DNA of 64,000 nucleotides from Citreicoccus inhibens (GTDB lineage: Bacteria; Myxococcota; Myxococcia; Myxococcales; Myxococcaceae). This document shows, piece by piece, positions 3,515 through 21,470 of the stretch. Position 1 is the stretch's first letter. Each line of letters opens with the position of its first letter. The notes below the pieces were generated by a model. That model saw only the letters and a program-made list of their open reading frames with translations, ran no database searches and was not told the DNA's origin. The stretch lies in assembly GCF_019039035.1 (NCBI RefSeq), contig NZ_JAHNZT010000003.1:372001-436000 (forward strand), read 5' to 3'. The position numbers and the translations under genes are program-made.

Positions 3515-3541
3515 GCCCTCGGGCGCGCGTGACATTCCACG

Positions 3542-6500: not shown

Positions 6501-7408
6501 ACCAGGAGCGGCGTGGGCGCGTCCGTCCGGCACGCCGCATCGAAGGCCGCCAGCACTTCCGACGCCCGCGCGAAGCGCTCGGCCGGGGCCTTGGCCAAGC
6601 ACCTTCGCAGCAACACATCGAGCCCCGGGGGCACCTCGGCGCGCTCGGAGGCCGCGGGCGCGCGCAAGCTGACGTGACCATGGCGGACCGCGTCCGGTCC
6701 CCCCGTGAAGGGCGGCGCCCCGGTGAGCAGCTCGAAGAGGAGCACGCCCAAGGCGTAGAGGTCCGCCGCGGCGCCGGCCTCCCCGGACTCCAGGCACTGC
6801 TCCGGCGCCATGTAGTGTGTCGTCCCCTGTCGCCACGGCGCCCCCGGCCCCTCGCCGATGCGCGCCAGCCCGAAGTCGAGAAGGCTGAGCGCCCCACCCT
6901 CGCGCAAGAAGACGTTCTCCGGCTTGAGGTCGTGGTGCGCCACCCCCGCGGCATGCACCGCCTCCAGCGCGGCGCACAGGCCCGACAACAGCTCGCGCAC
7001 CCGAGGCGTGGACGCGGCCCCCGTGCCCGGCAGCTCGGCCATCCACGCGGCCAGCGTCTGTCCCCGCAGGCGCTCCAGCACGAGGAACGGACGGCCACCG
7101 AGGGTTCCCTCGTCCAGCAGCTCCGGCGCGATGGGGGCGCCCACCCGGCGCAGCGCCTCCGCCTCATGCGCGAAGCGGCCGGTGCGCGGTGCCCGAGCCA
7201 CCTTCAGCGCCACCTCGCGCCCGTCCCGCTCTCGCACCGCGGTGAAGACGTGCGACGACCCCCCGGCGCCCAGCAGCATCGCGCCGCCGAAGCCGGGCAC
7301 ATCCGGCAGCGGCACCGGCGCGGCAGACAGCACCGGCGCGGGGCGCTCACCGTGCACGGGACACGCCGCTCCGGTGGCAAGGCGGCGGTGGCAGACCGGA
7401 CAGCGCAT
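3542..7408 (-). CDS. multidomain Ser/Thr kinase with zinc ribbon, degenerate cyclase-like, AAA ATPase and TPR regions
   Basis: A 1288-residue signalling protein. Order of domains: a tiny N-terminal zinc ribbon (C3xxC6...C16xxH19); a Hanks kinase at about 40-295 (LGAGGSSHVF loop, K69, HHDLKPEN with D160, DFG 178-180, MAPEQ); a region at 319-436 that resembles a class III nucleotidyl cyclase fold (HGGALSRVWGGGYLVAF, then a VLVTAAAAARL end) but lacks the metal-binding aspartates; a short repetitive linker; an AAA/STAND ATPase with Walker A GEVGHGKT (533-540) and Walker B VLLLDDAH; and a long helical TPR-like C-terminus. The kinase has His in place of the HRD arginine. This resembles the PknK-type architecture in which the ATPase/TPR part senses a ligand or partner. 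It follows the OPT transporter gene by 15 bases, suggesting a shared transcript. Confidence 0.93.
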   Translation of the reverse strand: MRCPVCHRRLATGAACPVHGERPAPVLSAAPVPLPDVPGFGGAMLLGAGGSSHVFTAVRERDGREVALKVARAPRTGRFAHEAEALRRVGAPIAPELLDEGTLGGRPFLVLERLRGQTLAAWMAELPGTGAASTPRVRELLSGLCAALEAVHAAGVAHHDLKPENVFLREGGALSLLDFGLARIGEGPGAPWRQGTTHYMAPEQCLESGEAGAAADLYALGVLLFELLTGAPPFTGGPDAVRHGHVSLRAPAASERAEVPPGLDVLLRRCLAKAPAERFARASEVLAAFDAACRTDAPTPLLVTRDELPAPVESVGLRPVALLGVRTPASVEVLRAAIEPHGGALSRVWGGGYLVAFPESLSAEANLRAAVLAARRLLEEERGGAAILHLASAHVRPGAATPRVAGAALAVPGSWWPESLVPGAVLVTAAAAARLEGEALDELPEREAPTTSLEGEALDTSREGGAPSTSPPGAACPSSLTGLARLRPRDDRTSSEAPAAPPLLGREALLDALVAEARACLSEAVPGLCVLTGEVGHGKTRLVEALASRLGQEGLARGVRLRAPAPDTSAPDALVEALVAASASAPEALAAHRPSAARALAGQLLQRSREAPRVLLLDDAHLADPTSLDTLELATLAGGRAPLWVCVVGRPSLLGLRPHLGDRSARASRHVLPPLSPESTRALLLHLLRPAEHVPEPVLARLERLAQGVPLSLVEVAGALRAAGALRASPGGGWYIAPDALLDVSVTPLFERLAARALAALPEVHQGLARLCAVLGTEVDVERVDAALRHLGPGEDAVRLGSLDAGAGLRRLARAGLLRESEPGHFVFRHPLLREALEGLLPPAARRSLHAAALHATGTDGPSRRRRRAHHAAACGAHEEAVEAFLALAEEARRAHLPVEAEQHYTRALSLLPEADPERRALALAGRGRVRHRLQRFREGLADLGAARALAGARGDEALVVDLLLEEATARDWMEDAEGSGACTREALERIASLDSPRLSLRCSLARGRMHVRLGEWGPAARVLASVAEGAEAARDHETHVVALALLGSALTFLERPDEAAERFEDALRRCEAAGDALHLAATRINRVLLWLSRGDMARIEDDLRHAMALGRELGHAQVERWSTFNLAEVLYMQGRLDEALPLARRAHELGVRFFREHPVPVDALLLARLGAARGERAEARGQLEWIASHCPPESLPPTAVMRRLVELQVGELPADTAAWSTLVEEAEPFASPDEKVEILLQATLGALQAGRTAEARSWLARAGQAVEGAPLWRARYESLRARVADAL

Positions 7409-7423
7409 GGGCGATCCCCGAGG

Positions 7424-9292: not shown

Positions 9293-9319
9293 CCTGCTCC
9301 CCCGGCGACGAGCCCTCGC

Positions 9320-9548
9320 TGTGACCTTTCATGTCACGAGGGAGCCAAACATGTAACTTAAGAAATAACTGGAAACAATTGAATACTGGACATATCGCGG
9401 CGCGGCGTCCTAGCGCGGGTGGGCGAGGTCCTCGCGAGGCACATGCGTTGCTCTGGGGGTGGCGCGCAGTCCACGGCCGTGACCTCCGCGCCGGACTTCG
9501 CCGGCGCCCGGGGGGGCGGCCTCACTCGCAGCCCGCCACAGAGGACTC
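9320..9548 (+). promoter_or_regulatory. leader/promoter region of secreted protein copy 1
   Basis: This 229-base region is the most AT-rich stretch nearby (for example AACTTAAGAAATAACTGGAA) and shares blocks with the leader of copy 2: TGTGACCTTT, ATTGAATnCnGGACATnTCGCGGCG, and a near-palindromic GTCCACGGCCGTGAC followed by CGCCGGACTTCGCCGGC. Conservation after duplication suggests a promoter plus operator or a structured 5' leader. The last element can fold (GCCGG...CCGGC). Exact -35/-10 boxes cannot be assigned by eye. Confidence 0.5.
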
Positions 9549-11039
9549 ATGCCTCATTCCCTCCACCGCCCCCACCTGGGCACCGCGCTCACCTTGCTGG
9601 CCGTGGTGACGTTCGCCTGGGGAGGTGCCGCCCAGGCGCAGACCTATACGGGTGGCATCGCGGACAACTTCGTCGCGCCCACCGAGCCCACGTCGCCCAG
9701 CGCGGGGCTGCTGGCGTGGATCGCCGCCAACTACCCGAACCCGGGCTCGCGGCCGTACGACTCGATGGTCATCGACCAGTACTTCGGCACCACGTTCCCG
9801 GGGCTCACGCGCAACGGCCGCATCTGCGGCGCCACGCTGCGCACCACGGTTCGCAACGGCGACACCAACGACTCGCTCGGGCTGCTCTTCATGGGGCCCG
9901 CCGGCACGCCCCTGGCCACGGGCTGGGGAGACTCGCTGGTCAACCTGGGCGTGCCCTTCGGCGCCACGGGCACCATCACCCTCAACCTGGCGTCGCTGCC
10001 GGGCGGCGCCAACCTCCTGCCCACGCTCAACGCCCAGGGCTTCCTCGATGTCATCGTCCAGGACGACAGCGCGGTGGACTTCATCACGCTGACCATCACC
10101 CCGTGCCGCACCGACGTCTTCATCCGCGACAACGCGTCCGACGTGGGCACCGAACCGGGCGCGTACGGCGCCTCGGGCATCTGGAGCAGCCCGGACATCC
10201 GCGTCTGCCAGATGCCCGGCTGCGTGGGCAACCAGAACCCCGAGTTCGGCCAGCCCAACACCCTCTACGTGAAGCTCAACAACTCCGGCCCCAACGCGCC
10301 CGTGGGCAACCCCGGCGTGGGCACGTTGATGCTCTATTACACGGCCTCTGGCGGCGGCGCGCTGTGGAACGCGGACTGGAACTTCATTGGCAGCCTCAAC
10401 GTCACCGTGCCCGCGGGCGCGGTGGGCTACGAGGTCCCCGTGACGTGGAACACCGTCCCTGCTCCCGGCCACTACTGCCTGTTGGCGCGCTGGGTGTCGG
10501 TGTCCGACCCGATGACGTTCGCCGAGCTCATCCCCTCCAACACCGTCAACAACACCATCCGCAACAACAACATCGCGTGGCGCAACGTGAACGTGGTGAA
10601 CCTCAACCCGCTCATCGCCTCGCAGGACTTCGACTTCCGCGTGCGCAATGTCCTTCGTGAGCGCGCCAGCGCCGCCTCCCTGGAGGTCCGCGTGCCCGCC
10701 GGTCCGTCCTTCCTCGACCGCGGACAAATCACCCTCACCCTGCCCCCCGAGCTGTGGTCGACCTGGAGCCGCAAGGGCACGGGCTTCCAGGTCATCGGTG
10801 AGGGCATCGTGCGCGTGACGAGCCCGAGCGGCGCGCGGCTCGACGGCCTCCAACTGGCGCCCCAGGCCGCCCCGTTCGTGCGCGTCACCTTCTCCGCGGC
10901 GGCGGACGTCCGCGCCGCTCCGGCGCAGCCGTTCACCGTGCAGGTGGTCCAGTACGCGGAGACCGACGAGACGCCCGGCCAGGTCATCGAGGTCGGTGGC
11001 GTGGGCTACGACATCAGCCTCGGCGTGGCCAAGCAGTAA
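9549..11039 (+). CDS. secreted protein, copy 1 of a tandem pair
   Basis: A 496-residue exported protein with a clear Sec signal peptide (LGTALTLLAVVTFAWGGAAQA, cleavage likely after AQA, before QTYTGG). The middle has a segment rich in Asn, Gly and aromatic residues (DVFIRDNASDVG, WSSPDIRVC, NNNIAWRNVNVVN) with paired cysteines (RVCQMPGC), and the C-terminal 130 residues look like a beta-sandwich. The central part resembles segments that accompany secreted proteins in myxobacteria and other predatory or soil bacteria, but I cannot assign a named family or enzymatic activity. It has the same length as its downstream neighbour, with which it is collinear over its whole length. It is likely an extracellular or surface-associated structural or binding protein. 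Confidence 0.88.
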   Translation: MPHSLHRPHLGTALTLLAVVTFAWGGAAQAQTYTGGIADNFVAPTEPTSPSAGLLAWIAANYPNPGSRPYDSMVIDQYFGTTFPGLTRNGRICGATLRTTVRNGDTNDSLGLLFMGPAGTPLATGWGDSLVNLGVPFGATGTITLNLASLPGGANLLPTLNAQGFLDVIVQDDSAVDFITLTITPCRTDVFIRDNASDVGTEPGAYGASGIWSSPDIRVCQMPGCVGNQNPEFGQPNTLYVKLNNSGPNAPVGNPGVGTLMLYYTASGGGALWNADWNFIGSLNVTVPAGAVGYEVPVTWNTVPAPGHYCLLARWVSVSDPMTFAELIPSNTVNNTIRNNNIAWRNVNVVNLNPLIASQDFDFRVRNVLRERASAASLEVRVPAGPSFLDRGQITLTLPPELWSTWSRKGTGFQVIGEGIVRVTSPSGARLDGLQLAPQAAPFVRVTFSAAADVRAAPAQPFTVQVVQYAETDETPGQVIEVGGVGYDISLGVAKQ

Positions 11040-11057
11040 CCCGCGCATCGACGCAGC

Positions 11058-11090
11058 GAGGGCGGGCCACGCACGTCGCGGCCCGCCCTC
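11058..11090 (+). terminator. strong GC hairpin after copy 1
   Basis: GAGGGCGGGCC and GGCCCGCCCTC form a perfect 11-bp stem around an 11-base loop, 18 bases after the stop codon. No T-run follows. Its counterpart is kept after copy 2, which supports a role in transcript ending or stability. Confidence 0.65.
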
Positions 11091-11118
11091 CGCGCGCGGT
11101 CCCCGCGGCGCCAACGCT

Positions 11119-11341
11119 TGTGACCTTTTCGGCCACAATCGAGACATGCGAGTAATTGGAGAAATTAAAGCAACCCATTGAATGCAGGACATGTCGCGGC
11201 GTCAGCGTGGGGCGCCGCACAGCCCCTCAAGAGCCCTGCGCTCCGCTGAGGGGTGGCGTGCAGTCCACGGTCGTGACCGCCGCGCCGGACTTCGCCGGCA
11301 TGGGGGATGCGGCCGCACGCATCACTCACAAAAGGGGACCC
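11119..11341 (+). promoter_or_regulatory. leader/promoter region of secreted protein copy 2
   Basis: The 302-base gap between the two secreted-protein genes holds the copy 1 hairpin and then this leader, which repeats the elements of the first leader in the same order: TGTGACCTTTT, an AT-rich block, ATTGAATGCAGGACATGTCGCGGCG, GTCCACGGTCGTGAC and CGCCGGACTTCGCCGGC. The second gene therefore probably has its own promoter under the same control as the first. Confidence 0.5.
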
Positions 11342-12832
11342 ATGCTCCATTCCATTCACCGCCCGCGTCTGGGCACCGCGCTCACCCTGTTGGCATTGGT
11401 GGCGCTCACCTGGGGAGGTGCCGCCCAAGCCCAAACCTATACAGGCGGCATCGCGGACAACTTCGCCGCGCCCACCGAGCCCGCGTCGCCGAGCGCGGGG
11501 CTGCTGACGTGGATCGCCGCCAATTACATGTACCCGGGCACGCGGGACTACGACGAAGGAGGCGCGGACCGCTACTTCGGCACCACGTTCACCAACCTCA
11601 CGCGCAACGGCCGCATCTGCGGCGCCACGCTGCGCACCCAGGTCTTCAACGGCGGCCTCAACGACTCGTTCGGGCTGAAGTTCGTGGACACCACCGGCGC
11701 CCTCCTGGTCCCCGCCTGGGGACGCAGGATCAGCACCCTGGGCGTGCCCTCGCTGACCACGGGCACCATCAACCTCGACCTGGCGGCGCTGCCGGGCGGC
11801 GTCAACCTCCTGCCCACGCTCAACGCGCAGGGCTTCCTCGACGTCACCGTCGATGACGACAGCGCGGTGGACTACGTCACGCTGACCCTCACCCCGTGCC
11901 GCACCGACGTCTTCATGCGCGACAACGCGTCTGACGTGGGCGCGGAGCCGGGCACCTACGGCTCGTGGGGCATCTGGAGCAGCCCGGACATCCGCGTCTG
12001 CCAGATGCCCGGCTGCGTGGGCAACGAGAACCCCGAGTTCGGACAGACCAACTCCATCTACGTGAAGCTCAACAACACCGGGCCCAACGCGCCCGTGGGC
12101 AACCCGGGCGTGGGCACGCTGATGCTCTACTACACGGCCTCTGGCGGCGGCGCGCTGTGGGACACCGACTGGACCTTCATCAACAGCAAGCCCGTCACCG
12201 TTCCCGCGGGCGCGGTGGGCTTCGAGGTCGAAGTGCCGTGGAGCAACGTGCCCGGCCCCGGCCACTACTGCCTGTTGGCCCGCTGGGTGTCGGCGTCCGA
12301 CCCCATGACGTTCCCCGAGCTCATCCCCTCGAACACCGTCAGCAACACCATCCAGAACAACAACATCGCCTGGCGCAACGTGAACGTGGTGAACCTGAGC
12401 CCGCTCGTCTCCACGCAGAGCTTCAACTTCCGCGTGCGCAACCTCCTGCTGGACGGCACCAGCTCCGCCGCGCTGGAGGTCCGCGTGCCCGAAGGGCCGT
12501 CCTTCCTCGAGCAGGGGGACATCACGCTCACCCTGGAACCCGAGCTGTGGGCGAGCTGGGGCCAGAAGGGCACGGGCTTCGAGGTCATCAGTGACGGCGT
12601 CGTGCGGATAACGGACCCGAGCCTCGCGCGGCTCGAGGACCTCCACCTGCCGTCCCATGCCGGCCCGATGGTGCAGGTCACCTTCTCCGCGACGGAGGAG
12701 GCCCGCAACGCGCCCGCCCAGCAGTTCACCGTGCAAGTGGTCCAGTACTCTGAAACGGAAGAGGCGCGCGGCGAGCTGCCCGAGGTCGGAGGGGTGGGCT
12801 ACGACATCACCGTCGGCGTGACGGAGCCGTAA
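11342..12832 (+). CDS. secreted protein, copy 2 of a tandem pair
   Basis: A 496-residue paralogue of the preceding gene product, collinear from the signal peptide (LGTALTLLALVALTWGGAAQA) to the C-terminus. I start it at ATG 11342, which aligns exactly with the start of copy 1 and precedes the signal peptide; the frame is open 62 codons further upstream but those codons fall in the conserved leader. Differences are concentrated between residues 50 and 120 (for example NYMYPGTRDYDEGGADRYFG against NYPNPGSRPYDSMVIDQYFG), while the cysteine-bearing centre is nearly unchanged. As with copy 1, I assign only an exported protein of unknown function; divergence in one segment may mean different ligands. 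Confidence 0.88.
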   Translation: MLHSIHRPRLGTALTLLALVALTWGGAAQAQTYTGGIADNFAAPTEPASPSAGLLTWIAANYMYPGTRDYDEGGADRYFGTTFTNLTRNGRICGATLRTQVFNGGLNDSFGLKFVDTTGALLVPAWGRRISTLGVPSLTTGTINLDLAALPGGVNLLPTLNAQGFLDVTVDDDSAVDYVTLTLTPCRTDVFMRDNASDVGAEPGTYGSWGIWSSPDIRVCQMPGCVGNENPEFGQTNSIYVKLNNTGPNAPVGNPGVGTLMLYYTASGGGALWDTDWTFINSKPVTVPAGAVGFEVEVPWSNVPGPGHYCLLARWVSASDPMTFPELIPSNTVSNTIQNNNIAWRNVNVVNLSPLVSTQSFNFRVRNLLLDGTSSAALEVRVPEGPSFLEQGDITLTLEPELWASWGQKGTGFEVISDGVVRITDPSLARLEDLHLPSHAGPMVQVTFSATEEARNAPAQQFTVQVVQYSETEEARGELPEVGGVGYDITVGVTEP

Positions 12833-12860
12833 CCGGAACACCGACGCATCGGGGCATCGG

Positions 12861-12889
12861 GGGCGGGCCGCGCACGTCGCGTCCCGCCC
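12861..12889 (+). terminator. hairpin after copy 2
   Basis: GGGCGGG and CCCGCCC flank an inner CGCG-CACGT-CGCG stem-loop with one mismatch between them. It is the altered counterpart of the hairpin after copy 1 and lies 28 bases past the stop codon. The rest of 12833-13123 shows no coding region that I can support. Confidence 0.55.
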
Positions 12890-13123
12890 TTCGCGCGCTG
12901 TTCGCCTCGCGACGCGACCTGCCCCGTCTCTGCCGACAACCCGACGCGCCACCCTGGCCTCCAGCACGAGCCAGATGCCCTGAAGCAGCAGCGGCGCGGT
13001 GCGCGAAAACCCTCCTCCCGGGCGAATCCAGACCCAGGTGCTCGGTTTCCATCAGAGTGGACCTTTCCAGGCGCGCGCGGATACTGTGGCGCCACCGTCC
13101 GCGGGCGGTGGGGGTTGGTCTGC

Positions 13124-13579
13124 ATGGGTTCCAGTTCAGTCGTCGTGGGGACGGACCTGGTGCAGGTCTCCGCGGTCGCGGCCTCCATGGAGCGCTTCGG
13201 GATGCGCTATCTGGAGCGGTTGTTCACCCCCGACGAGCTGGCCTATTGCCTGCGCGAACCGCGCGCCGCCCCCGAGCGGCTGGCCGCGAGATTCGCCGCG
13301 AAGGAAGCCACCTTCAAAGTGCTGCGCGTGCATGAGGAGCCCGTGCCCTGGCGCACCATCGAGGTGGTGCGCTCGCCCGAGGGCTACTGTGATCTGGCCC
13401 TGCACGCCGAGGCGCTGGCCCTGGCGCGCGCGCGCGGCCTGACGGGTTTCTGCGTGAGCCTCACCCACGAGGCGGACTACGCGTCCGCCGTCGTCATCGC
13501 CGAGCGAGCCACGGGCGCCACGGGCCCCGTGGTCGCTCCTTCCCCTGCCACCTCCACGACTCCCCAGTGCCATGACTGA
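13124..13579 (+). CDS. holo-[acyl-carrier-protein] synthase-like 4'-phosphopantetheinyl transferase
   Basis: A 151-residue AcpS-type enzyme that would transfer phosphopantetheine from coenzyme A onto a carrier-protein serine. Signatures are GTDLV with the magnesium-binding D11, RLFTPDEL, and LAARFAAKEATFK with E61. Start at ATG 13124 places the protein just ahead of the conserved VVVGTDLV strand. Its C-terminal 25 residues are Pro/Ala/Thr-rich and beyond the usual 120-130 residue family length. The gene overlaps the next one, an acyl carrier protein, by eight bases, so it is probably the dedicated activator of that carrier rather than the housekeeping AcpS. It opens a rightward run continuing to 21470. 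Confidence 0.9.
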   Translation: MGSSSVVVGTDLVQVSAVAASMERFGMRYLERLFTPDELAYCLREPRAAPERLAARFAAKEATFKVLRVHEEPVPWRTIEVVRSPEGYCDLALHAEALALARARGLTGFCVSLTHEADYASAVVIAERATGATGPVVAPSPATSTTPQCHD

Positions 13580-13814
13580 AGCCATCCGCAACATCCTCAA
13601 GGAACACGGCCGTCTGTCCGTCGACATCTCCACCCTCACCGACGCGGCAGACCTGTACCAGGCCGGCATGACGTCCCACGCCAGCGTGAACGTGATGCTC
13701 GCGCTGGAGGCCAACTTCGAGATCGAGTTCCCCGACAAGTTCCTGCGTCGCAGCGTCTTCTCCAGCGTCTCGGCGATCAGCGAAGCGGTCGACGAGATTC
13801 GGGCGGCCCGGTAG
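13572..13814 (+). CDS. atypical acyl/aminoacyl carrier protein
   Basis: An 80-residue four-helix carrier protein. The attachment motif reads AGMTSHASVNVMLALE, so S35 is the likely phosphopantetheine site; the normal DSL motif is replaced by TSH. This variant is, to my knowledge, typical of small carrier proteins partnered with stand-alone amino acid:[carrier protein] ligases, which fits the ligase encoded three genes downstream. The carrier would hold an amino acid as a thioester for the following enzymes. It overlaps the AcpS-like gene by eight bases and is five bases from the acyl-CoA dehydrogenase-like gene, indicating tight translational coupling. Confidence 0.88.
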   Translation: MTEAIRNILKEHGRLSVDISTLTDAADLYQAGMTSHASVNVMLALEANFEIEFPDKFLRRSVFSSVSAISEAVDEIRAAR

Positions 13815-13818
13815 CGCC

Positions 13819-15009
13819 ATGACGACCGTGACCGCGCAGGAAGGTGCCGCACCGGTGGGCCCGCGCCCGCTGGAGACCGTGGCCCGCATCGCCTCGGAGG
13901 TCGCTCGCGTCCACGCGGATTCCGTGGACCGCGAGGGCCGCTTCCCCGCCGAGGCCATCGAGGCGCTCAAGCGCGCCCGGATGCTCGGGGTGCTCGTGCC
14001 CGCGTCGCTCGGCGGGCCCGAGCTGGGCTTGGACGAAGTGGCGGCCATGTGCGAGGCGCTGGCCCACCACTGCGCCTCCACCGCGATGATCTTCGCCATG
14101 CACCACATCCAGGTCGCGTGCCTGGTGCGGCATGGCCAGAGCTCCCCCCTGCTCCGCGCCTACCTCACGGAGCTCAACGAGCGTCAGGCGCTCATCGCCT
14201 CGGTCACCTCCGAGGTGGGCGTGGGCGGCGAGATGCGCGCCAGCGTCACCTGCGTGGAGCAGCGCGACGGTCGCTTCACGCTCGACAAGGACGCCACGAC
14301 CATCTCCTACGGCGAGCACGCGGATGACCTGCTGGCCACCGCGCGCCGCGCCCCGGACGCGCCCCGGAGCGATCAGGTCGCGGTGCTCCTGCGCAAGGGC
14401 GACTTCACCCTGGAGCGCACGAGCGCATGGGACACGCTGGGCATGCGCGGCACGTGCAGCCCGGGCGCCAAGGTGCGCTCGTCCGGTCCCGCCGAGCAGG
14501 TGCTGCCCGTGCCGTTCGCGGACATCGCCAGTCAGACCATGGTGCCGGTATCCCACGTGCTGTGGAGCAGCGTGTGGCTGGGCATCGCGGCCGGCGCCGT
14601 GGGCCGCGCGCGCGCGTTCGTCCGGCAGCAGGCCCGCGCCAGGCCCGGCACCACGCCGCCCACCGCGGTGCGGCTCGCCGAGGTGCACAACCAGTTGCAG
14701 ACCCTGCGCGCCAGCGTGCACGAGGTCTCCAGCGACGCGGGGCGCCGCATGGCGGCCGGAGACCCGGAGGCGCTGTCCTCCATCGGGTTCTCGCTGAAGA
14801 TGAACAACCTCAAGGTGTCCGCCTCGCAGCTCGTCGTGGACATCGTCCATCGCGCGCTGCTCATCTGCGGCATCCAGGGCTACAAGAACGACTCGCCGTT
14901 CTCACTCGGCCGTCACTTGCGCGATGCCCACTCGGCGGCGCTGATGATTGGCAACGACCGCATCCTCGCCACCAACGCCTCCCTCCTGCTCGTCCTCAAG
15001 GACGAATGA
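13819..15009 (+). CDS. acyl-CoA dehydrogenase-like flavoprotein
   Basis: A 396-residue member of the acyl-CoA dehydrogenase superfamily: an all-helical N-terminal domain, a beta domain (TSEVGVGGEMRASVT), and a C-terminal helical domain (SASQLVVDIVHRALLICGIQGY). Where classical enzymes have the catalytic Glu in YEG, this one has ALMIGNDRIL, so the usual base is absent at that position and the reaction may differ from simple alpha,beta-dehydrogenation. In this cluster the likely substrate is an aminoacyl or acyl group on the neighbouring carrier protein rather than a CoA ester; that is inference from context. It begins with ATG 13819, five bases after the carrier protein stop. Confidence 0.85.
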   Translation: MTTVTAQEGAAPVGPRPLETVARIASEVARVHADSVDREGRFPAEAIEALKRARMLGVLVPASLGGPELGLDEVAAMCEALAHHCASTAMIFAMHHIQVACLVRHGQSSPLLRAYLTELNERQALIASVTSEVGVGGEMRASVTCVEQRDGRFTLDKDATTISYGEHADDLLATARRAPDAPRSDQVAVLLRKGDFTLERTSAWDTLGMRGTCSPGAKVRSSGPAEQVLPVPFADIASQTMVPVSHVLWSSVWLGIAAGAVGRARAFVRQQARARPGTTPPTAVRLAEVHNQLQTLRASVHEVSSDAGRRMAAGDPEALSSIGFSLKMNNLKVSASQLVVDIVHRALLICGIQGYKNDSPFSLGRHLRDAHSAALMIGNDRILATNASLLLVLKDE

Positions 15010-15097
15010 CGCCCCTTCCCTGACGCCGCGCGCGCCGCTCGTTGCGGGGCGCGCCCCACCCGCGGCCCTCTCCTTCGCAGTCCCCTGGAGTTCCCCC

Positions 15098-16006
15098 GTG
15101 TCTGACATTTCCGCGCAGGACTTCCACGACGCGCTCGTCGCGCACAAGCTCATCCTCCCCGTCGGCGTGCCCGGTGCGTTCGGCCGGGGGCCCGTGTTCG
15201 AGGACGTGCTGCGGCGCTTCGGTGACCTGGTCACCGAGGCCGCGAAGGACGACGGCGCCGAGCAGATGCTGTTTCCGCCCATCATCGACCGGCGCGTCTT
15301 CGAGAAGAGCGACTACCTCGAGTCCTTCCCCCAGCTGGCCGGCACCATCTTCAGCTTCGTGGGCAACGACGCGCAGCACCGCGAGATGATGAACTGCGTG
15401 CACGAGGGCAAGCCCTGGTCGCAGTTCCAGTCCATGACCGAGGTCGTGCTCGCGCCCGCCTCCTGCTACCCGGTGTACCCGCAGTTCACCGGGACGCTGC
15501 CGGAGAAGGGCCGGCTGGTGGACGTGCAGAACTGGGTCTTCCGGCATGAGCCCTCGCCCGAGCCCACGCGCATGCAGTCCTTCCGCATCCGCGAGATGGT
15601 GCGCGGCGGAAGGCCGGAGCAGGTGGCGGACTGGCGCGACCAGTGGCTGGAGCGCGGCCTGACGCTGTTGCGGCGGCTGGGCCTGCCCGTCGAGCCCGTC
15701 ACCGCGTCGGATCCGTTCTTCGGGCGCGGCGGGCGAATGCTCGCGGCGAACCAGCGCATGCAGAAGCTGAAGTTCGAGGTGGTGGTGCCGGTGCTGTCAA
15801 AGGAGAAGCCCACCGCCATCTGCTCGTTCAACTACCACCAGGACCACTTCGGGCTCCTGTTCGACATCAAGACGCAGGACGGCCAGGTGGCCCACACCGC
15901 GTGCCTGGGCTTCGGCCTGGAGCGCGTGACGATGGCCCTGTTCCGCACGCACGGCTACGTCCCCGCCGAGTGGCCCGCCGAGGTCCGCAAGGTGCTCTGG
16001 CCATGA
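15098..16006 (+). CDS. amino acid:[carrier protein] ligase (truncated class II aminoacyl-tRNA synthetase homologue)
   Basis: A 302-residue stand-alone catalytic domain related to seryl-tRNA synthetase, with no tRNA-binding domain. Motif 2 is VFRHEPSPEPTRMQSFRIRE and motif 3 GFGLERVTMALF. Candidate zinc ligands are C123 (APASCYPVYP), E166 (FRIRE) and C269 (HTACLGFGLE), matching the Cys-Glu-Cys pattern known for Bradyrhizobium Bll0957 and methanogen-type SerRS. Characterised relatives activate glycine or alanine and transfer it to the phosphopantetheine arm of a small carrier protein instead of to tRNA. I chose GTG 15098, preceded by CTGGAG. Neighbours (carrier protein, phosphopantetheinyl transferase, DUF1839) match the context expected of this family. 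Which amino acid is used cannot be read with confidence. Confidence 0.9.
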   Translation: MSDISAQDFHDALVAHKLILPVGVPGAFGRGPVFEDVLRRFGDLVTEAAKDDGAEQMLFPPIIDRRVFEKSDYLESFPQLAGTIFSFVGNDAQHREMMNCVHEGKPWSQFQSMTEVVLAPASCYPVYPQFTGTLPEKGRLVDVQNWVFRHEPSPEPTRMQSFRIREMVRGGRPEQVADWRDQWLERGLTLLRRLGLPVEPVTASDPFFGRGGRMLAANQRMQKLKFEVVVPVLSKEKPTAICSFNYHQDHFGLLFDIKTQDGQVAHTACLGFGLERVTMALFRTHGYVPAEWPAEVRKVLWP

Positions 16007-16983
16007 GCATCGTCTCGGTCCTCGGGGTAGACCCCCGCGCCTACGTCAAGCACGCGCTCCACGCCGAGGGCTCCCTCTGGGTGGAGAAGAACTGCTACGC
16101 CGACCTGTGGATCGAGCTGCTCCATGCCCAACGCCTGGACCCGCTCCCGTTGCTGGCCTTCTCGCTGGCGCTCGACTTCGTGGGCGACCAGTGGACCTTC
16201 TTCAAGCCGCCGCATGAAGACCTGCACACGCTCTACGGCCTGGACGTGCAGGAGCTGAACGTGTGGCGGACGCTGGCCGAGCACGCCGCGCTGCACTTGA
16301 GCGCGGGCCGGCTCGTGCTCACCGAGGCGGACGCGTTCTACCTGCCCGACACCGCGGGCACGGATTACGGCCGCCAGCACACGAAGACGACCATCGCGTT
16401 GGAGACGTTGGACGTGGAGGCCCGCCGCCTGGGCTACTTCCACAACAGCGGCTACTACACGCTGGAGGGCGCGGACTTCGACGGCGTCTTCCGGCGCGGC
16501 GGCACCTGGGACGCGAACGTCCTGCCGCTGTTCGCCGAGTGGGTGAACCTGGAGCGGCTGGAGCGCCACGCGCCCGACGAGCTGCGCGCGCGCTCGCGCC
16601 GATTGCTCGCCCATCACCTGCGCCGCCGCCCCACCCAGAATCCGTGCGCGCGCTTCGCGGAGCGCTTCGGCCAGGACGTGGATGGACTGCGCACCGTCGG
16701 CATCGACACGTACCACGCCTATGCCTTCGCCACGCTGCGGCAGGTGGGCGCGAACTTCGAGCTGGCCGCGGCGTATCTGCGCTGGCTGGATGGAGGCGCG
16801 TCGAGCGGGCTCGTGCGCGCGGCCACGGAGCTGGAGTCCATCTCGTCCGCCGCCAAGACGCTCATCCTCAAGGGCGCGCGCTCGGTCGCGGCGCGAAAGC
16901 CCGCGGACTTCAGTGAGCTGCTCGGGACGATGGTGACCGGGTGGGAGCGAGGCATGGCGCAGCTCGTCTCGGACGCGGGCTGA
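16003..16983 (+). CDS. DUF1839 family protein
   Basis: A 326-residue protein whose N-terminal region (WVEKNCYADLWIELLHAQ, DQWTFFKPPHEDLHTLYG) and TDYGRQHTKTT and YFHNSGYYTLEG segments match what I know as DUF1839. These conserved, histidine/aspartate/tyrosine-rich blocks with papain-like or transglutaminase-like flavour (the N-terminal NCYAD cysteine) suggest an enzyme, possibly the acceptor-side transferase for the loaded carrier protein; that is conjecture. It overlaps the ligase gene by the classic ATGA, supporting translational coupling, and DUF1839 genes are repeatedly seen beside amino acid:carrier protein ligases. No signal peptide or membrane segment, so cytoplasmic. Confidence 0.82.
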   Translation: MSIVSVLGVDPRAYVKHALHAEGSLWVEKNCYADLWIELLHAQRLDPLPLLAFSLALDFVGDQWTFFKPPHEDLHTLYGLDVQELNVWRTLAEHAALHLSAGRLVLTEADAFYLPDTAGTDYGRQHTKTTIALETLDVEARRLGYFHNSGYYTLEGADFDGVFRRGGTWDANVLPLFAEWVNLERLERHAPDELRARSRRLLAHHLRRRPTQNPCARFAERFGQDVDGLRTVGIDTYHAYAFATLRQVGANFELAAAYLRWLDGGASSGLVRAATELESISSAAKTLILKGARSVAARKPADFSELLGTMVTGWERGMAQLVSDAG

Positions 16984-16995
16984 CAGGCGAGGACC

Positions 16996-19596
16996 ATGGG
17001 CCGCATTCGTTCCGTCAGTACCCATCGGGTGACGCCGCTCGATACCGGTTGGCAGGCCGTGGCCGTGGAGCCCGGCGCCGTGGAGGCGCCCTCGCGCCTC
17101 GCGGGAGCATCGCTCGCGTGGATCGCCGCGAGTGTCCCGGGCACGGCCGCCTCGGCCCTGCGTGAGGCGAAGGCGTGGGACCTGGACCGCCCGCCTCCCG
17201 CGCTCGACACGCGCGATTGGTGGTACCGCGTGGACGTGGTGCTGCCCGCGCCCGAGGACGGCGCCGTCTTCCTGTGCTTCGACGGGCTGGCCACGCTCGC
17301 GGAGGTGTGGCTGGACGAGGAGGTGGTGCTGCGCTCGGACAACATGTTCCAGGCGCACGCGGTGGATGTCACCGCGCACGCGGGCGCCGCGCGGCGGCTG
17401 GCCATCCGCTTCCGAGCGCTCGCGCCCGTGCTCCAGGAACGGCGAGCGCGGCCCCGTTGGCGCACGCGACTGGTGGATGCCACGCACCTGCGCTGGTTCC
17501 GCACCACGCTGCTGGGACACATCCCGGGCTGGTGTCCCGCCGTTCCCCCCGTGGGGCCCTGGCGCGCGGTGCGGGTGGAGCAGCGCAGGCACGTATCCGT
17601 CGAGAGCGCGGACGTGCACGCGATGCCTCGAGGCGACGGCGGACACGTCACGGTGGACCTCCAGCTCAAAGCGCTGGGGCGCGCGCGGGTGGTCTCCGCG
17701 ACGCTAGAGGTCGGCCCGGCACACGGGGCCTCCGCGGCGATGGAGGTGGGCGCTGCGCGCGTGGCGCTGACGTGTGAACCCGGCAGCGCGGGCGTCTGGA
17801 GAATCCGAGGCGAAGCCGAGCTGGAAGCCGTGGCGCGCTGGTGGCCGCACACGCACGGCGAGCCCACGCTGTATCCGGCGCGCGTGGACGTGTCACTGGA
17901 GGGCGGCGAGCACGTGACGCTCGATGTGGGCCGCGTGGGCTTCCGCACGGTGGAGCTGTCCCAACAAGACGGGGGCTTCGCGCTGTCCGTCAACGGCGTG
18001 CCGGTGTTCTGTCGAGGCGCCTGCTGGACGCCGCTCGACGTCGTGTCCCTGAACGGGACGGAGCGGGACTACGTGGAGGCGCTGGAGCTGGCGCGCGCGG
18101 CGGGCATGAACATGCTGCGCGTGGGCGGCACCATGGTCTACGAGGACGACCGCTTCTACGACGCCTGCGACGCGCGCGGCATCCTCGTGTGGCAGGACTT
18201 CATGTTCGCCAACATGGACTACCCGGCCGAGGACCCCGCGTTCCAGGCCAGCGCGCGACGCGAGGCGGAGCAGTTCCTCGCCCGCGTGCAGGGCAGCCCC
18301 GCGCTGGCCGTCCTCTGCGGCAACAGCGAGGCGGAGCAGCAGGCCGCGATGATGGGCCTGCCGAGCGAGCAGTGGACGGGCCCGCTCTTCACGTCGCTGC
18401 TGCCCGAAGTCAGCGCGCGCGTGCGTCCGGACGCGCCCTACTGGCGCTCGTCCCCGAGCGGCGGCGCCATGCCGTTCCACACGCGCGAGGGCGTCACGCA
18501 CTACTACGGCGTGGGCGCGTACCTGCGGCCGTTGGAGGACGCGCGGCGCGCGGGCGTGCGCTTCGCGTCCGAGTGCCTGGCCTTCTCCAACATCCCCGAG
18601 GACGCCACGCTGGAGCGCGTGCTGGGAGATGGCGAGGCGCCCGGACACCACCCGAAGTGGAAGGCCCGCGTGCCTCGCGACTCCGGCTCGGGCTGGGACT
18701 TCGAGGACGTGCGCGACCACTACCTGCGCCTCCTGTTCGACGTGGACCCGGCGCGCCTGCGCTACGCGGACGTGCCGCGCTACCTCGCGCTGGGACGCGT
18801 GGCCACGGCCGAGGTCATGGCCGCCACGCTGGCCGAGTTCCGCCGCCCCGGCGCGTCGTGCCAAGGCGCGCTCGTCTGGTTCTTCCGCGACCTGTGGCCC
18901 GGCGCCGGCTGGGGGCTGGTGGATGCCACGGGCCTGCCCAAGGCCGCGTACTACGCCGTCAAGCGCACGCTGCAGCCCGTGCTCCTCGCGCTGTCGGACG
19001 AGGGGCTCGATGGGCTGGACCTGAACGTGACGAATGACTCCGGCGAAGCACTCGACGTGGAGCTGGAGGTGACGTTCTACCGCGACGGAGAGGTCCCGGT
19101 GGCCAGCGGCAAGGCCCCGGTCCTCGTCCCCGCGCGCGGCGCCACGCGACGCTCCACCGAAGCGATGGTGGGCCACTTCGTGGACTCCACCGAGGCGTAC
19201 CGCTTCGGCCCGCCGGGCCATGCGCTCACCATCGCGCTGATGCGCGAGCGCGCCACGGGCCGCGTGCTCCAACGCGCGTTCCACCTGCCCGCGGCGACGC
19301 GGGCCTCGCCTCCTCGCGAGCCCGGACTGGAGGCGCACGCGAGCCCCCTGGGTGACGGCGGGCACCTGGTGCGCGTGCGCGCGAAGCGGTTCGCGCAGTC
19401 CGTCTGGTTCGATGTCCCCGGCCACGTCCCCGAGGACAACTACTTCCATCTGGCTCCCGGTGAGGAGCGCGCGGTGGTGCTGCGGCCTCGGCCTTCGGCG
19501 CGGCCCTTCCGGGGCTTCGTGCAGGCGCTCAACGCGGCCAGCCCCCAGCGCATCGAGTTGTCCGCTCCCGCGGCCTCGGGAGGAATCCGACCATGA
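16996..19596 (+). CDS. glycoside hydrolase family 2 (beta-mannosidase-like)
   Basis: An 866-residue protein with the family 2 layout: jelly-roll N-terminal domain (WWYRVDVVLP, LWLDEE-like AEVWLDEEVVL), an immunoglobulin-like domain, a TIM barrel at about 325-650 and C-terminal beta domains. Both expected catalytic glutamates are present: the acid/base E445 in LCGNSEAEQ and the nucleophile E526 in RFASECLAFSNIP. It lacks a signal peptide, so a cytoplasmic role, such as acting on a glycosylated intermediate of the cluster product, is more likely than polymer degradation outside the cell. It starts 12 bases after the DUF1839 stop and overlaps the next gene by ATGA. Substrate sugar is not predictable here. 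Confidence 0.87.
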   Translation: MGRIRSVSTHRVTPLDTGWQAVAVEPGAVEAPSRLAGASLAWIAASVPGTAASALREAKAWDLDRPPPALDTRDWWYRVDVVLPAPEDGAVFLCFDGLATLAEVWLDEEVVLRSDNMFQAHAVDVTAHAGAARRLAIRFRALAPVLQERRARPRWRTRLVDATHLRWFRTTLLGHIPGWCPAVPPVGPWRAVRVEQRRHVSVESADVHAMPRGDGGHVTVDLQLKALGRARVVSATLEVGPAHGASAAMEVGAARVALTCEPGSAGVWRIRGEAELEAVARWWPHTHGEPTLYPARVDVSLEGGEHVTLDVGRVGFRTVELSQQDGGFALSVNGVPVFCRGACWTPLDVVSLNGTERDYVEALELARAAGMNMLRVGGTMVYEDDRFYDACDARGILVWQDFMFANMDYPAEDPAFQASARREAEQFLARVQGSPALAVLCGNSEAEQQAAMMGLPSEQWTGPLFTSLLPEVSARVRPDAPYWRSSPSGGAMPFHTREGVTHYYGVGAYLRPLEDARRAGVRFASECLAFSNIPEDATLERVLGDGEAPGHHPKWKARVPRDSGSGWDFEDVRDHYLRLLFDVDPARLRYADVPRYLALGRVATAEVMAATLAEFRRPGASCQGALVWFFRDLWPGAGWGLVDATGLPKAAYYAVKRTLQPVLLALSDEGLDGLDLNVTNDSGEALDVELEVTFYRDGEVPVASGKAPVLVPARGATRRSTEAMVGHFVDSTEAYRFGPPGHALTIALMRERATGRVLQRAFHLPAATRASPPREPGLEAHASPLGDGGHLVRVRAKRFAQSVWFDVPGHVPEDNYFHLAPGEERAVVLRPRPSARPFRGFVQALNAASPQRIELSAPAASGGIRP

Positions 19597-21470
19597 GTCC
19601 GAACGTCGCGCGGTCCACGCCCGAACCCGGGCAGGCCCCCGCCCCTCCTCCCGAAGTCCACGCCCTGCCGCTCCCCCTTGTCCTGGGCCCCGAGTCCCGC
19701 CGCCTCTTCGGCTGGTACCACCCGCCGCAGGGCACCTCGACGCGCCGGCTCGGCGTGGTGCTGTGCAACCCCCTGGGCTACGAGGCCATGCCCGCGCACC
19801 GCACGTACCGCCATCTGGCGGCCCGGCTCGCGGAGGTCGGCTTCGCGGTGCTGCGCTTCGACTACGACGGCACGGGAGACTCCGCGGGCCACGACGGTGA
19901 ACCGGGTCGCGTCGCCGCGTGGCGCGAGAGCGTGGGCCTCGCCATCGACGCGCTGAAGCAGCGCGCGGGCGTGCGGCACGTGGGCCTGTTCGGGCTGCGC
20001 CTGGGCGGACTGATCGCGCTGATGACCGCGGCCGAGCGCGACGACGTGCGCGCGCTGATGCTCTGGGCCACCCCCGCGACGGGCCGGGCCTACGTGCGCG
20101 AGCTGCGCGCCTTCCGCCAGCTCAAGGAGAAGGAGAACGCCCAGGCCCCGCGCCCCCCGCCATCGGACGCGGGCGAGGAGATCGCCGGCTACCTGCTCCA
20201 GCCCAGCACCGCGGACGACCTCTCCGCGCTGCGCCCGTTGGAGGCGACGCCGCGCGCGGTGCGCCACGCGCTGTTGCTCGGTCGCGATGACCTGCCAGGC
20301 GCGGAGGCCCAGCTCGCCCGCCATCTCCAGGGTCACGGCGTGGACGTGTCCCATCCCTCCGTGCCGGGCTACGCCGCCGCGATGCGCGACGCGGAGTTCA
20401 CGCTGTTGCCCGAGGATGCGCTCGACACGTTCGTGCGCTGGATGAGCGACACCGACTCACGCGAGGAGGCCTCCGAGCCCGCAGCCCAGGCGGCGCACAC
20501 GGTGGGGAACGCGCCCTTCGAGTGCACCGCGCCGGGCGGCGCGCGCGTGAGAGAGCGCGCGGTGCGCTTCGGCACCGGAGGCCGGCTGTTCGGCATCGTC
20601 AGTGAGCCACTCTCGGGGCGGGCCGAGCGCACCCGCGCAGGCGTGCTGTTCGTCTCCGTGGGCGCCAACCACCGCATCGGGCCCAACCGCATGCACGTGA
20701 CGCTGTCGCGAGAACTGGCCTCGCGAGGCTTCGTGGCCATGCGCCTGGACATCGGCGGCGTGGGAGACAGCCCTCCGGCGCCCGGCGAGCCAGAGCATCC
20801 GCTCTATTCGAAGGCCTCCGTGCGAGACATCCAGGAGGCCATGGACTGGCTGGGCGAGTCGTACGGCCTGCGCCGCCACGTGGTGGCCTCGGTGTGCTCG
20901 GGCGCGTTCCTCACCTTCCACGCGAGCGTGGCGGATGAGCGGGTGGCGGGCCACATCCTCATCAACCCGCAGACCTTCGTCTGGCGCGCGGGCGACTCGC
21001 TCGTCATCCGCCAGCGCGAGCAGCGGCCCGCGTACGAGACGTCGTTCAAGTCCACGCGCTTCTACCGCAGCGCGGCGCTCCAGAAGGAGACGTGGCGACG
21101 GTTGATGCGCGGCGAAATCCAGGTGAAGCGCATCGCGCGGGAGATGCTGTCACGCGCCATGAAGCAGGCGCAGACCCTGCCGTTGCCGGGGCCGCTCCAG
21201 AGCCCCGAGCAACGCCAGCACCAGGACGTGCGCCACGCCTTCGTGGCGTTGGCGGACCGGGGCCTGGAGTCGCTGCTCGTCTACAGCGCCAACGACGGTG
21301 GACTCGATGTCATCGAGCGCTACCTGGGCCCTCACGCGCGCAAGCTGGCGCGTCGTCCCAACTTCCGCTTCGAGGTGGTGGACGGCGCGGACCACACCTT
21401 CACGCCCCTGTGGGCCCAGGCCCATCTGGGTCAGCTCATCCTGAGCTTCATCACTCGGAAGTTTGGCTGA
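19593..21470 (+). CDS. fused double alpha/beta-hydrolase with altered nucleophile elbows
   Basis: A 625-residue protein with two alpha/beta-hydrolase domains. Domain 1 (about 25-285) has DYDGTGDSAG and the elbow LFGLRLGGL, in which the nucleophile position is arginine (R136), so it should be catalytically dead or regulatory. Domain 2 (about 310-625) has RLDIGGVGDS and the elbow VASVCSGAF, placing cysteine C435 at the nucleophile position, and a late histidine in VDGADHTF. Cysteine-type elbows occur in some acyltransferases and in exosortase-associated hydrolases, whose partner also carries GLRLG. A role in releasing or transferring the acyl/aminoacyl group from the carrier protein is plausible but inferred. 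It overlaps the upstream glycosidase gene by ATGA and ends the run. Confidence 0.85.
   Translation: MSPNVARSTPEPGQAPAPPPEVHALPLPLVLGPESRRLFGWYHPPQGTSTRRLGVVLCNPLGYEAMPAHRTYRHLAARLAEVGFAVLRFDYDGTGDSAGHDGEPGRVAAWRESVGLAIDALKQRAGVRHVGLFGLRLGGLIALMTAAERDDVRALMLWATPATGRAYVRELRAFRQLKEKENAQAPRPPPSDAGEEIAGYLLQPSTADDLSALRPLEATPRAVRHALLLGRDDLPGAEAQLARHLQGHGVDVSHPSVPGYAAAMRDAEFTLLPEDALDTFVRWMSDTDSREEASEPAAQAAHTVGNAPFECTAPGGARVRERAVRFGTGGRLFGIVSEPLSGRAERTRAGVLFVSVGANHRIGPNRMHVTLSRELASRGFVAMRLDIGGVGDSPPAPGEPEHPLYSKASVRDIQEAMDWLGESYGLRRHVVASVCSGAFLTFHASVADERVAGHILINPQTFVWRAGDSLVIRQREQRPAYETSFKSTRFYRSAALQKETWRRLMRGEIQVKRIAREMLSRAMKQAQTLPLPGPLQSPEQRQHQDVRHAFVALADRGLESLLVYSANDGGLDVIERYLGPHARKLARRPNFRFEVVDGADHTFTPLWAQAHLGQLILSFITRKFG

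Follow-up and report, generated by a model that had tools for sequence, protein, structure and literature searches.

The locus described here raises the question of what purpose is served by a carrier protein that appears to be charged with an amino acid when its gene lies among those of a flavoprotein, a protein of unknown function and two kinds of hydrolase. The operon consists of seven genes, all on the forward strand, at positions 13124-21470 of a 64,000-nucleotide stretch of Citreicoccus inhibens DNA (hereafter the window), exactly where an initial annotation made from the sequence alone had placed it (Table 1). The seven family assignments given there were all matched by Pfam and NCBIfam models at the same coordinates and on the same strand. 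The description of the run as tightly coupled is borne out by overlaps of 8 bp (PPT and carrier) and 4 bp (ligase and DUF1839; GH2 and double hydrolase) and by gaps of 4 bp between carrier and flavoprotein and 12 bp between DUF1839 and GH2, but it does not hold for the 88 bp that separate the flavoprotein gene from the ligase gene.

Table 1. Genes of the operon, with positions in the window and the features supporting each assignment
Product	Position	Strand	Supporting features
AcpS-type 4'-phosphopantetheinyl transferase (PPT)	13124..13579	+	PF01648 (ACPS), 52.5 bits; TIGR00516, 64.1 bits (cut-off 59.8)
Aminoacyl carrier protein (CP), 80 aa	13572..13814	+	PP-binding PF00550; NF005480, 108.7 bits (cut-off 72); phosphopantetheine site Ser35
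Acyl-CoA-dehydrogenase-like (ACAD-like) flavoprotein	13819..15009	+	Acyl-CoA_dh, PF02771/PF00441; catalytic Glu absent
Amino acid:[carrier protein] ligase	15098..16006	+	GTG start; tRNA-synt_2b core PF00587; NF005479, 421 bits
DUF1839	16003..16983	+	PF08893, 362 bits; proposed Cys-dependent aminoacyl-CP:amine acyltransferase (amide synthase)
Glycoside hydrolase family 2 (GH2), beta-mannosidase-like	16996..19596	+	GH2 domains PF22666, PF17753
Fused double alpha/beta-hydrolase	19593..21470	+	Hydrolase_4 twice; N half TIGR03101-like, C half TIGR03100-like

Conservation of the gene set

The PF08893 domain is present in at least 532 stretches of the genome collection, and we examined the genomic neighborhoods of the best 80 of these. 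The set is anchored on DUF1839, which is therefore present in every locus by construction; genes were counted as within a locus when they lay anywhere in its two flanks, of up to 10 kb each, some contigs stop inside the cluster, phyla were assigned from record titles, and two of the loci (L025 and L075) appear to repeat loci of the myxobacterial set (L018 and L016). Within these limits GH2 occurs in 74 and the PPT in 36 of the best 80 loci. If the count is restricted to the 43 loci that have 7.5 kb or more of sequence in each direction, the ligase and GH2 are each found in 42, the carrier in 41, the dehydrogenase-like gene in 40 and the double hydrolase in 28. The hydrolase is absent from the other 15, and some of its matches are low-scoring or truncated (L038, 93 bits; L096, 76 bits).

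The best 80 loci span nine phyla. Eight of them include loci that keep the order carrier-flavoprotein-ligase-DUF1839-GH2 on a single strand, and the first four genes are also found in this order in the ninth; many Burkholderiales loci have the genes in two blocks that point away from each other. Ten loci from the window's own phylum carry the same genes in the same order up to the contig ends, with two exceptions: in L015 the hydrolase lies on the opposite strand, and L018, a locus of the window's own family, shows no hydrolase in the 3.7 kb that follow GH2. The PPT is also present in four of the ten (L020-L023), and the seven proteins of L020 are 92-100% identical to those of the window. Pairwise identities of six families correlate with each other (r 0.51-0.84), and in none of the 15 comparisons was as high a value reached in 200 permutations. 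Three near-duplicate loci were dropped for this analysis, which was not corrected for shared ancestry. A lack of conserved gene order, which was named at the outset as an observation that would refute the cluster, is clearly not what we find. On the strength of same-phylum gene order, cross-phylum co-occurrence and correlated divergence we reject the idea of spurious genes or chance neighbors.

At the level of whole genomes, the ligase is present in 14 of the 15 DUF1839-bearing genomes tested, sometimes on another contig; the remaining genome (L083) has no ligase match. Six of the 13 genomes having a ligase match lack DUF1839. Among the ligases that occur without it, one is encoded beside an ATP-grasp protein, a thioesterase and an alanine racemase, and another (L166) lies near a nonribosomal peptide synthetase (NRPS). 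In the Priestia cluster (L110) the trio of carrier, flavoprotein and ligase is found without DUF1839, with a thioesterase nearby. Genes flanking the module are mostly not common to the best 80 loci. We propose that the operon forms a pathway module that is complete in itself and has been widely transferred.

Activation of an amino acid on the carrier protein

The ligase is a protein of 302 amino acids in which only the PF00587 core is matched, that is, a class II aminoacyl-tRNA synthetase (aaRS) core without the tRNA-binding part. Its NF005479 score of 421.1 bits is above the curated cut-off of 357, and it closely matches the Bll0957 entries 3mey (E-value 4e-74) and 4h2w (6e-76). Over about 290 aligned residues, C123, E166 and C269 match the Cys, Glu and Cys of 3mey, which we take to be zinc ligands. 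Both cysteines are present without exception in 83 ligase sequences and the glutamate in 81 of them; here and below, residue counts exclude low-scoring members of each family. The segment that is presumably responsible for carrier recognition resembles the variant in 4h2w and is unlike the Bll0957 sequence in 3mey. The NF005479 score and the closeness to Bll0957 support the earlier reading of this protein as a truncated class II synthetase that loads carriers, the loading itself being inferred. The carrier has 4h2w_C and Atu2571 (2jq4) as its relatives in the PDB (E-value 6e-17), and Ser35, the conserved attachment serine, is kept in 78 of 78 sequences.

Amino acid:[carrier protein] ligases were reportedly described in 2010, and papers of 2010 and 2013 are said to report the loading of a small amino acid onto a carrier by relatives of the present enzyme. 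Such loading is also covered in a 2022 review, according to which, in the excerpt available, the biological role of amino acid attachment by these ligases is still unknown (PMC9437257).

Domain analysis of the flavoprotein and the hydrolases

The model of the flavoprotein (pLDDT 93.9) has the acyl-CoA dehydrogenase fold (Z about 41). The position of the catalytic glutamate, before the glycine of the C-terminal motif, is occupied by Ile or Val in all 79 sequences that have a residue there; the alternative position used by isovaleryl-CoA dehydrogenase-type enzymes was judged by eye only. Because the catalytic glutamate is absent, the chemistry of this protein remains undecided. ColB1, which according to its PDB title dehydrogenates a carrier-tethered cysteine, shares the fold (Z 40.3), but plain dehydrogenases score equally high, and the fold was rejected as a means of deciding between a dehydrogenase and a flavin monooxygenase since the structural scores are tied.

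The GH2 protein matches beta-mannosidases in the PDB with an E-value of 1e-55. Its putative catalytic pair is retained, E445 in 76 of 79 sequences (otherwise Asp) and E526 in 79 of 79, although assignment of the acid/base is less sure because an alignment gap adjoins the residue. No signal peptide was seen by eye, and the enzyme is seemingly cytosolic. In the double hydrolase, the N and C halves are similar to exosortase A-associated hydrolases 2 and 1, respectively, but here they are fused and score below the equivalog cut-offs (TIGR03101, 106.7 bits against 202.75; TIGR03100, 141.2 bits against 168.45). The C half retains C435 (49 of 49 sequences) and H601 (47 of 47), while in the N half R136 replaces the nucleophile in 47 of 49.

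The predicted fold of DUF1839 matches carrier-dependent amide synthases

Sequence comparison could not place DUF1839 among solved structures: a 76-sequence profile gave no relevant PDB match and no similarity to CcbD, CtaG or AziU3 with E-values up to 10. The AlphaFold model (pLDDT 94.8), when compared with known structures, matches CcbD (Z 19.3), AziU3/U2 (18.2) and CtaG (17.2), and the next, unrelated protein among the matches listed scores 8.1. Alignments to these three take in both parts of a two-part fold and cover 271-283 of 326 residues (Z 15.6-19.3, TM about 0.6), and AziU3/U2 has the lowest Foldseek E-value among the matches listed (6.8e-8). C31, H126 and H147 are invariant in 91 of 91 sequences, and T/S130 is kept beside the two histidines. 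C31, near the N-terminus, is the candidate catalytic cysteine; neither it nor the other residues were superposed on CcbD C19 or on the CcbD triad. AziU3/U2 is linked to aziridine formation and is thought to act on a carrier in the azinomycin pathway, so the shared fold does not fix the reaction of DUF1839.

In the accessible part of PMC12945683, CcbD uses a cysteine, within a C-H-E triad, to couple an amino sugar with the amino acid on a carrier, and CtaG is described in an excerpt of PMC6772006 as a proposed peptidyl transferase between carriers. A C-T/S-H triad has been proposed for DUF1839 from modelling (PMC10318531, seen in part). As far as a predicted model can establish it, DUF1839 shares its fold with the carrier-dependent amide synthases, and we infer that it transfers an acyl group to an amine; the absence of sequence similarity is the reason for saying that it may work like CcbD or CtaG and not that it is one of them.

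Links to sugars and polysaccharides

Several loci place the module beside polysaccharide genes. In L105 a flippase-like domain is fused to the double hydrolase behind a glycosyltransferase; in L111 the ligase, carrier, PPT and a hydrolase homologue lie inside an exopolysaccharide locus; and the Cupriavidus metallidurans module (L108) has a sugar transferase (found by phmmer) upstream and WZC_N downstream. Sugar-transferase genes of the PF02397 type occur in six of the best 80 loci where 0.45 would be expected, a 13-fold excess, and none was found nearby in the other 74. The two sides of this comparison differ in method, the loci having been scanned by phmmer with one seed and the control, which comprises eight genomes, by the Pfam model; 21 control match rows were merged by eye into 18 genes, one of which lies in a counted locus. 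Neither a glycosyltransferase nor a polymerase belongs to the conserved set. Flanking genes were rejected as a guide to the product, since the commonest flanking cluster occurs in only seven of the best 80 loci; the member of it that was scanned is a carboxylesterase-like hydrolase. A sugar acceptor and a link to polysaccharides are supported, but not proved. The earlier suggestion that the run produces a small group derived from an amino acid, or attaches one, perhaps to a sugar, gains support from the ligase, the carrier, the gene order and the DUF1839 fold, and the sugar itself is an inference.

Proposed pathway and alternatives

Judging from the protein families, the AcpS-like enzyme would place phosphopantetheine on Ser35 of the carrier. 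The aaRS-like ligase, as its relatives do, would then adenylate a small amino acid, glycine or alanine by analogy with its family, and load it onto the carrier. The flavoprotein is inferred to oxidise the carrier-bound aminoacyl group, either by dehydrogenation at C-alpha or by oxygenation. The group would next move to Cys31 of DUF1839 and from there to an amine, most likely that of an amino sugar, in a CcbD-like ping-pong reaction; here the fold rests on the model and structure comparison, and the reaction is only inferred. The weakest inferences are the last roles, in which GH2 may trim or recycle a glycoside and the Cys-type double hydrolase may proofread, release or make a second transfer. 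The probable product is a sugar that bears an N-aminoacyl or N-(oxidised aminoacyl) group and that would find its way into surface polysaccharide in some hosts at least. To this scheme we assign a probability of about one half (0.52), all activities being inferred. The fuller version, a tRNA-free pathway spread horizontally across many bacterial groups, in which an enzyme of tRNA-synthetase descent supplies the carrier, a flavoprotein without its catalytic base oxidises the bound amino acid and DUF1839, a papain-like enzyme with no earlier assignment, links it to an amino sugar of surface polysaccharide, is possible but tentative.

The same first steps could also lead to a small diffusible metabolite, such as a signal, a protectant or an antibiotic-like amino-sugar amide, with GH2 serving activation or self-protection. 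This fits the missing glycosyltransferase and polymerase, the lack of the polysaccharide genes searched for in most flanks of the best 80 loci, and the role of CcbD, the closest mechanistic relative, in an antibiotic pathway. Transporters of the small-molecule type adjoin the genes in Phyllobacterium (MFS, L109) and Priestia (DMT, L110), and one flanking cluster, found in five of the best 80 loci, has an NRPS as its sole scanned member (L053). The flippase-hydrolase fusion, the exopolysaccharide loci L111 and L108 and the sugar-transferase excess speak against it, and we regard it as doubtful, though a real competitor. DUF1839 might instead close a ring, or act in some other way on the group that the carrier bears, as is presumed for AziU3/U2, with the hydrolase releasing the product. 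The Foldseek ranking and the Priestia trio with its thioesterase agree with such a reaction; the VIA Z score is slightly higher for CcbD than for AziU3/U2, a small difference, and the GH2 partner in most loci points to a sugar. We consider a reaction of this kind unlikely.

The excerpt of PMC10318531 contains a guess from gene context that DUF1839 serves in the cell wall as a hydrolase or transferase, with glycans as its target and acyl-CoA as its partner, and the papain-like superfamily to which this would assign it fits the fold found here. However, the carrier and the ligase are its conserved partners, so a carrier is likelier than CoA as the thioester donor, and no secretion signal was seen by eye at the DUF1839 start (from 16003; no signal-peptide program was used). 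This makes a cell-wall enzyme very improbable. A loose or accidental grouping of genes with separate functions could be argued from the unconserved flanks and the split Burkholderiales loci, but it is hardly credible when the core set is found whole or split in eight to nine phyla and its members diverge in a correlated manner.

Relation to known systems

The preferred scheme, that is, loading, oxidation and transfer to an amine, has a parallel in butirosin biosynthesis, where BtrI, BtrJ and BtrH account for a carrier-loaded amino acid, its alteration by a flavin enzyme and its papain-like transfer to an amino sugar; the activating and flavin enzymes differ from those of the window. BtrH is a carrier:aminoglycoside acyltransferase according to the excerpt of PMC10318531. 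It is not among the structural matches listed for the DUF1839 model, which excludes nothing.

Lincosamide synthetase (CcbD/LmbD with a carrier domain) is similar in its carrier-bound amino acid and in a Cys acyltransferase whose overall fold agrees with the DUF1839 model, and its acceptor is an amino sugar. Activation there is carried out by an NRPS adenylation domain, whereas the window has an aaRS-like ligase, and the flavoprotein, GH2 and the double hydrolase are extra in the window. The acyltransferases also differ in lacking sequence similarity and in their triads, the proposed C-T/S-H (PMC10318531, in part) against C-H-E (PMC12945683, in part). CtaG of closthioamide biosynthesis shares the fold and a proposed carrier-to-amine transfer, but uses an aryl acyl group and a carrier-bound tri-beta-alanine acceptor, with no sugar (excerpt of PMC6772006).

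If true, the fuller version of the scheme would show for the first time what amino acid:[carrier protein] ligases do in the cell, and would set beside lincosamide synthetase a counterpart based on an aaRS. Gene conservation and the resemblance of DUF1839 to CcbD in fold together lead to a specific question, namely whether the aminoacyl carrier donates to an amino sugar via Cys31. They also point to a likely reaction for DUF1839, a domain without assigned function that is widespread in the collection, and the module suggests new amide-forming and amino-acid-oxidising biocatalysts.

The Atu2573 and Bll0957 ligases and their carriers resemble the window's in family, in carrier relatives and, for Bll0957, in metal-site residues, and differ, for the Bll0957 sequence in 3mey, in the presumed carrier-recognition segment. 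The ligase Bll0957 itself is probably encoded in the same kind of cluster, because the next locus tag, bll0958, is an acyl-CoA dehydrogenase in a table in the part of PMC10888616 that was available.

Conservation of the operon

The seven consecutive genes form a real run, as judged from gene positions, strand and overlaps (8, 4 and 4 bp, with gaps of 4, 88 and 12 bp), within a genome of 9.05 Mb in 123 contigs. Pfam and NCBIfam return the families named in the initial annotation: a phosphopantetheinyl transferase (PPT), a carrier protein, an acyl-CoA dehydrogenase-like flavoprotein, an amino acid:carrier protein ligase, DUF1839, a family 2 glycosidase (GH2) and a double alpha/beta-hydrolase. 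Its overall reading, a carrier-protein amino acid activation cluster, is supported. Upstream, two clearly related proteins, each about 495 aa long, are encoded in tandem; by eye both N-termini resemble a signal peptide, and neither protein matched a Pfam family.

Features and loci discussed, in the coordinates of each stretch
Feature	Source	Positions	Strand
Seven-gene run	C. inhibens	13124-21470	+
First tandem protein	C. inhibens	9549-11039	
Second tandem protein	C. inhibens	11345-12832	
Carrier, flavoprotein and ligase with partner genes	Priestia plasmid (L110)	2884-16707	
Split ligase	Ktedonospora formicarum (L073)	9058-9989	
Two DUF1839 matches	Cupriavidus metallidurans CH34 (L108)	9895; 14656	one per strand
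Module behind nif genes	Rhizobium gallicum (L113)	1-15431	
Module with preceding modification genes	Rhizobium sp. NLR16a (L105)	3576-9981	

A search of 195 genomes of the same phylum found DUF1839 in 11, representing 8 of 90 genera; it is therefore rare and patchy there. The order carrier, flavoprotein, ligase, DUF1839, GH2, hydrolase is kept in 10 same-phylum loci, up to contig ends; the exceptions are L015, with the hydrolase on the opposite strand, and L018, with no hydrolase in the 3.7 kb behind GH2. A scan of named genomes found at least 532 stretches encoding DUF1839 relatives, and the best 80 were retained, many of them from metagenome assemblies; the two sets overlap (L016 is apparently the same locus as L075, and L018 as L025). 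By record titles, these best 80 come from Myxococcota, Pseudomonadota, Bacillota, Gemmatimonadota, Actinomycetota, Chloroflexota, Acidobacteriota, Planctomycetota and Verrucomicrobiota. The conserved gene order that the initial annotation proposed to look for was found: carrier-flavoprotein-ligase-DUF1839-GH2 lies on one strand in eight of the nine phyla. The Bacillota locus (L053) keeps only carrier-flavoprotein-ligase-DUF1839 in order; a GH2 match lies on the opposite strand at a distance of about 8 kb.

Partners within the best 80 of at least 532 loci were the ligase (75), GH2 (74), flavoprotein (72), carrier (69), hydrolase (45) and PPT (36); for the 43 of these loci flanked on each side by 7.5 kb or more the counts were 42, 42, 40, 41, 28 and 23, respectively. 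In many Burkholderiales loci the genes form two adjoining, divergent blocks, flavoprotein-ligase-DUF1839 and PPT-carrier-GH2-hydrolase. Among annotated plasmids, the 8 records listed carry the run as far as GH2, and the hydrolase follows GH2 in 3 (once behind a glycosyltransferase), is on the other strand in 2 and is unannotated in 3; three more records fall outside the 8, one being unannotated and two chosen for differing context. Pairwise identities of six families correlate (r 0.51-0.84), and 0 of 200 permutations were as high in each of 15 comparisons, with shared ancestry contributing. The cluster is far more widespread than a single genome could show. No account of it was found in the literature searched, a search that did not include the 2010 and 2013 ligase papers.

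Variants include the K. formicarum ligase, split across two overlapping frames by a frameshift or sequence error. This locus and three other Ktedonobacteria loci without the double hydrolase (L074, L081 and L085) have a shorter related gene behind GH2, which in L074, the only one tested, matches Thioesterase PF00975.

Carrier, ligase and flavoprotein as an inner module

The ligase aligns with Bll0957 over most of its length and has Cys, Glu and Cys at the aligned positions of what are presumably the zinc ligands of Bll0957. Its segment GRMLAANQRMQ is closer to the variant sequence of 4h2w than to 3mey, and the carrier has more in common with the 4h2w carrier and Atu2571 than with aminoacyl carrier protein 1 of 4h2s. 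One study tabulates bll0957 together with bll0958 (acyl-CoA dehydrogenase), each with a fold change of 3.0 in a phaR mutant versus wild type (PMC10888616).

Whole-genome searches of 15 DUF1839-bearing genomes (L029 counted once) found a ligase over the NF005479 cut-off in 14; the sole exception, with none over the cut-off, is the genome of L083. The ligase itself is rare, exceeding the cut-off in 7/289, 1/299, 3/296 and 4/321 genomes drawn around four module carriers, each count including the starting carrier. In the reverse direction, of the 13 genomes that have a ligase match, 7 also encode DUF1839; in two of the 13 (G895 and G927) the match falls somewhat below the cut-off. Near the 11 over-cut-off ligase loci beyond the four starting genomes (L173 and L174 being at contig ends), we found the flavoprotein 9 times, DUF1839 and the hydrolase 6 times each and GH2 5 times. 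We therefore regard carrier, ligase and flavoprotein as an inner module, which also occurs in combination with other genes.

The Priestia plasmid combines this module with an ATP-grasp enzyme, a thioesterase, an alanine permease, an alanine racemase, a D-Ala-D-Ala ligase and ComX genes. The first four of these partners hint at alanine, and perhaps the set makes a separate alanine-derived product. In Tsukamurella (L111) ligase and carrier occur with glycosyltransferases and without the flavoprotein. An NRPS is found close to a solitary ligase that scores slightly under the cut-off (L166). One genome from the phylum of L092 has a pair of ligase loci separated by about 10 kb (L167), one with carrier and PPT and the other with the DUF1839 module.

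The flavoprotein adopts the acyl-CoA dehydrogenase fold, with Ile or Val at the position of the usual catalytic Glu in 79/79 sequences; H95, H246, W249 and W253 are invariant (80/80), as is N379 (79/79). ColB1, which has a similar fold and according to its PDB title acts on a carrier-bound amino acid, provides a precedent.

DUF1839 as a putative aminoacyl transferase

PMC10318531 counts DUF1839 as new among the papain-like enzymes, gives it a C(T/S)H triad and suggests, as a guess, acyl-CoA-dependent glycan processing. A model built from 76 homologues (mean pLDDT 94.8) gave 19 Foldseek matches at E <=0.001, every one a chain of AziU3/U2, CtaG or CcbD. VIA-align ranked CcbD highest (Z 19.3 over 281 residues at 3.5 A), followed by AziU3/U2 (18.2) and CtaG (17.2); the next row was an ion channel at Z 8.1. 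C31, D110, D116, H126, K128, H147, R246 and Q247 are present in 91/91 sequences, and position 130 is Thr in 87 and Ser in 4. CcbD transfers carrier-bound proline first to its own Cys and then to a thiooctose, at the amino group (PMC12945683). CtaG is a proposed peptidyl transferase between two carriers, one donating the acyl group and the other bearing the tri-beta-alanine that receives it (PMC6772006). Because no sequence similarity of DUF1839 to CcbD, CtaG or AziU3/U2 was detectable, we say that it works like these proteins, not that it is one of them. Our main reading, held at slightly better than even odds (about 0.52), is a pathway that transfers an aminoacyl group from the carrier protein to an amino sugar or similar amine, with DUF1839 as the transferase.

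Possible link to polysaccharides

The solved structures nearest to GH2 are beta-mannosidases, and both presumed catalytic acids are retained. In the double hydrolase, a relative of exosortase A-associated hydrolase 2 (N half) is fused to a relative of hydrolase 1 (C half); Cys435 and His601 are kept in the C half, and Arg occupies the nucleophile position of the N half in 47/49. The family name derives from exosortase A-associated loci, which are tied to exopolysaccharide. The hydrolase of Rhizobium sp. NLR16a carries a fused flippase-like polysaccharide biosynthesis domain (PF13440), and a glycosyltransferase sits between GH2 and the fusion; we saw this fusion in a single locus. The Tsukamurella exopolysaccharide locus also holds a PPT and a hydrolase homologue, and C. 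metallidurans has a sugar transferase upstream and a Wzc-type gene downstream. PF02397-type sugar transferases occur in 6 of the best 80 of at least 532 loci, against an expectation of 0.45 derived from 8 of the genomes concerned (Poisson P 7e-6); their absence from the other 74 of these 80 counts against a sugar link. A polysaccharide destination is likely in some hosts only.

Two rhizobial loci have further neighbors. In R. gallicum, on a plasmid typed as conjugative, the module directly follows nif genes and precedes a 1-aminocyclopropane-1-carboxylate deaminase gene. In Rhizobium sp. NLR16a it is preceded by genes for elongation factor P, EpmA and a lysine-2,3-aminomutase-like protein, another modification system derived from an aminoacyl-tRNA synthetase.
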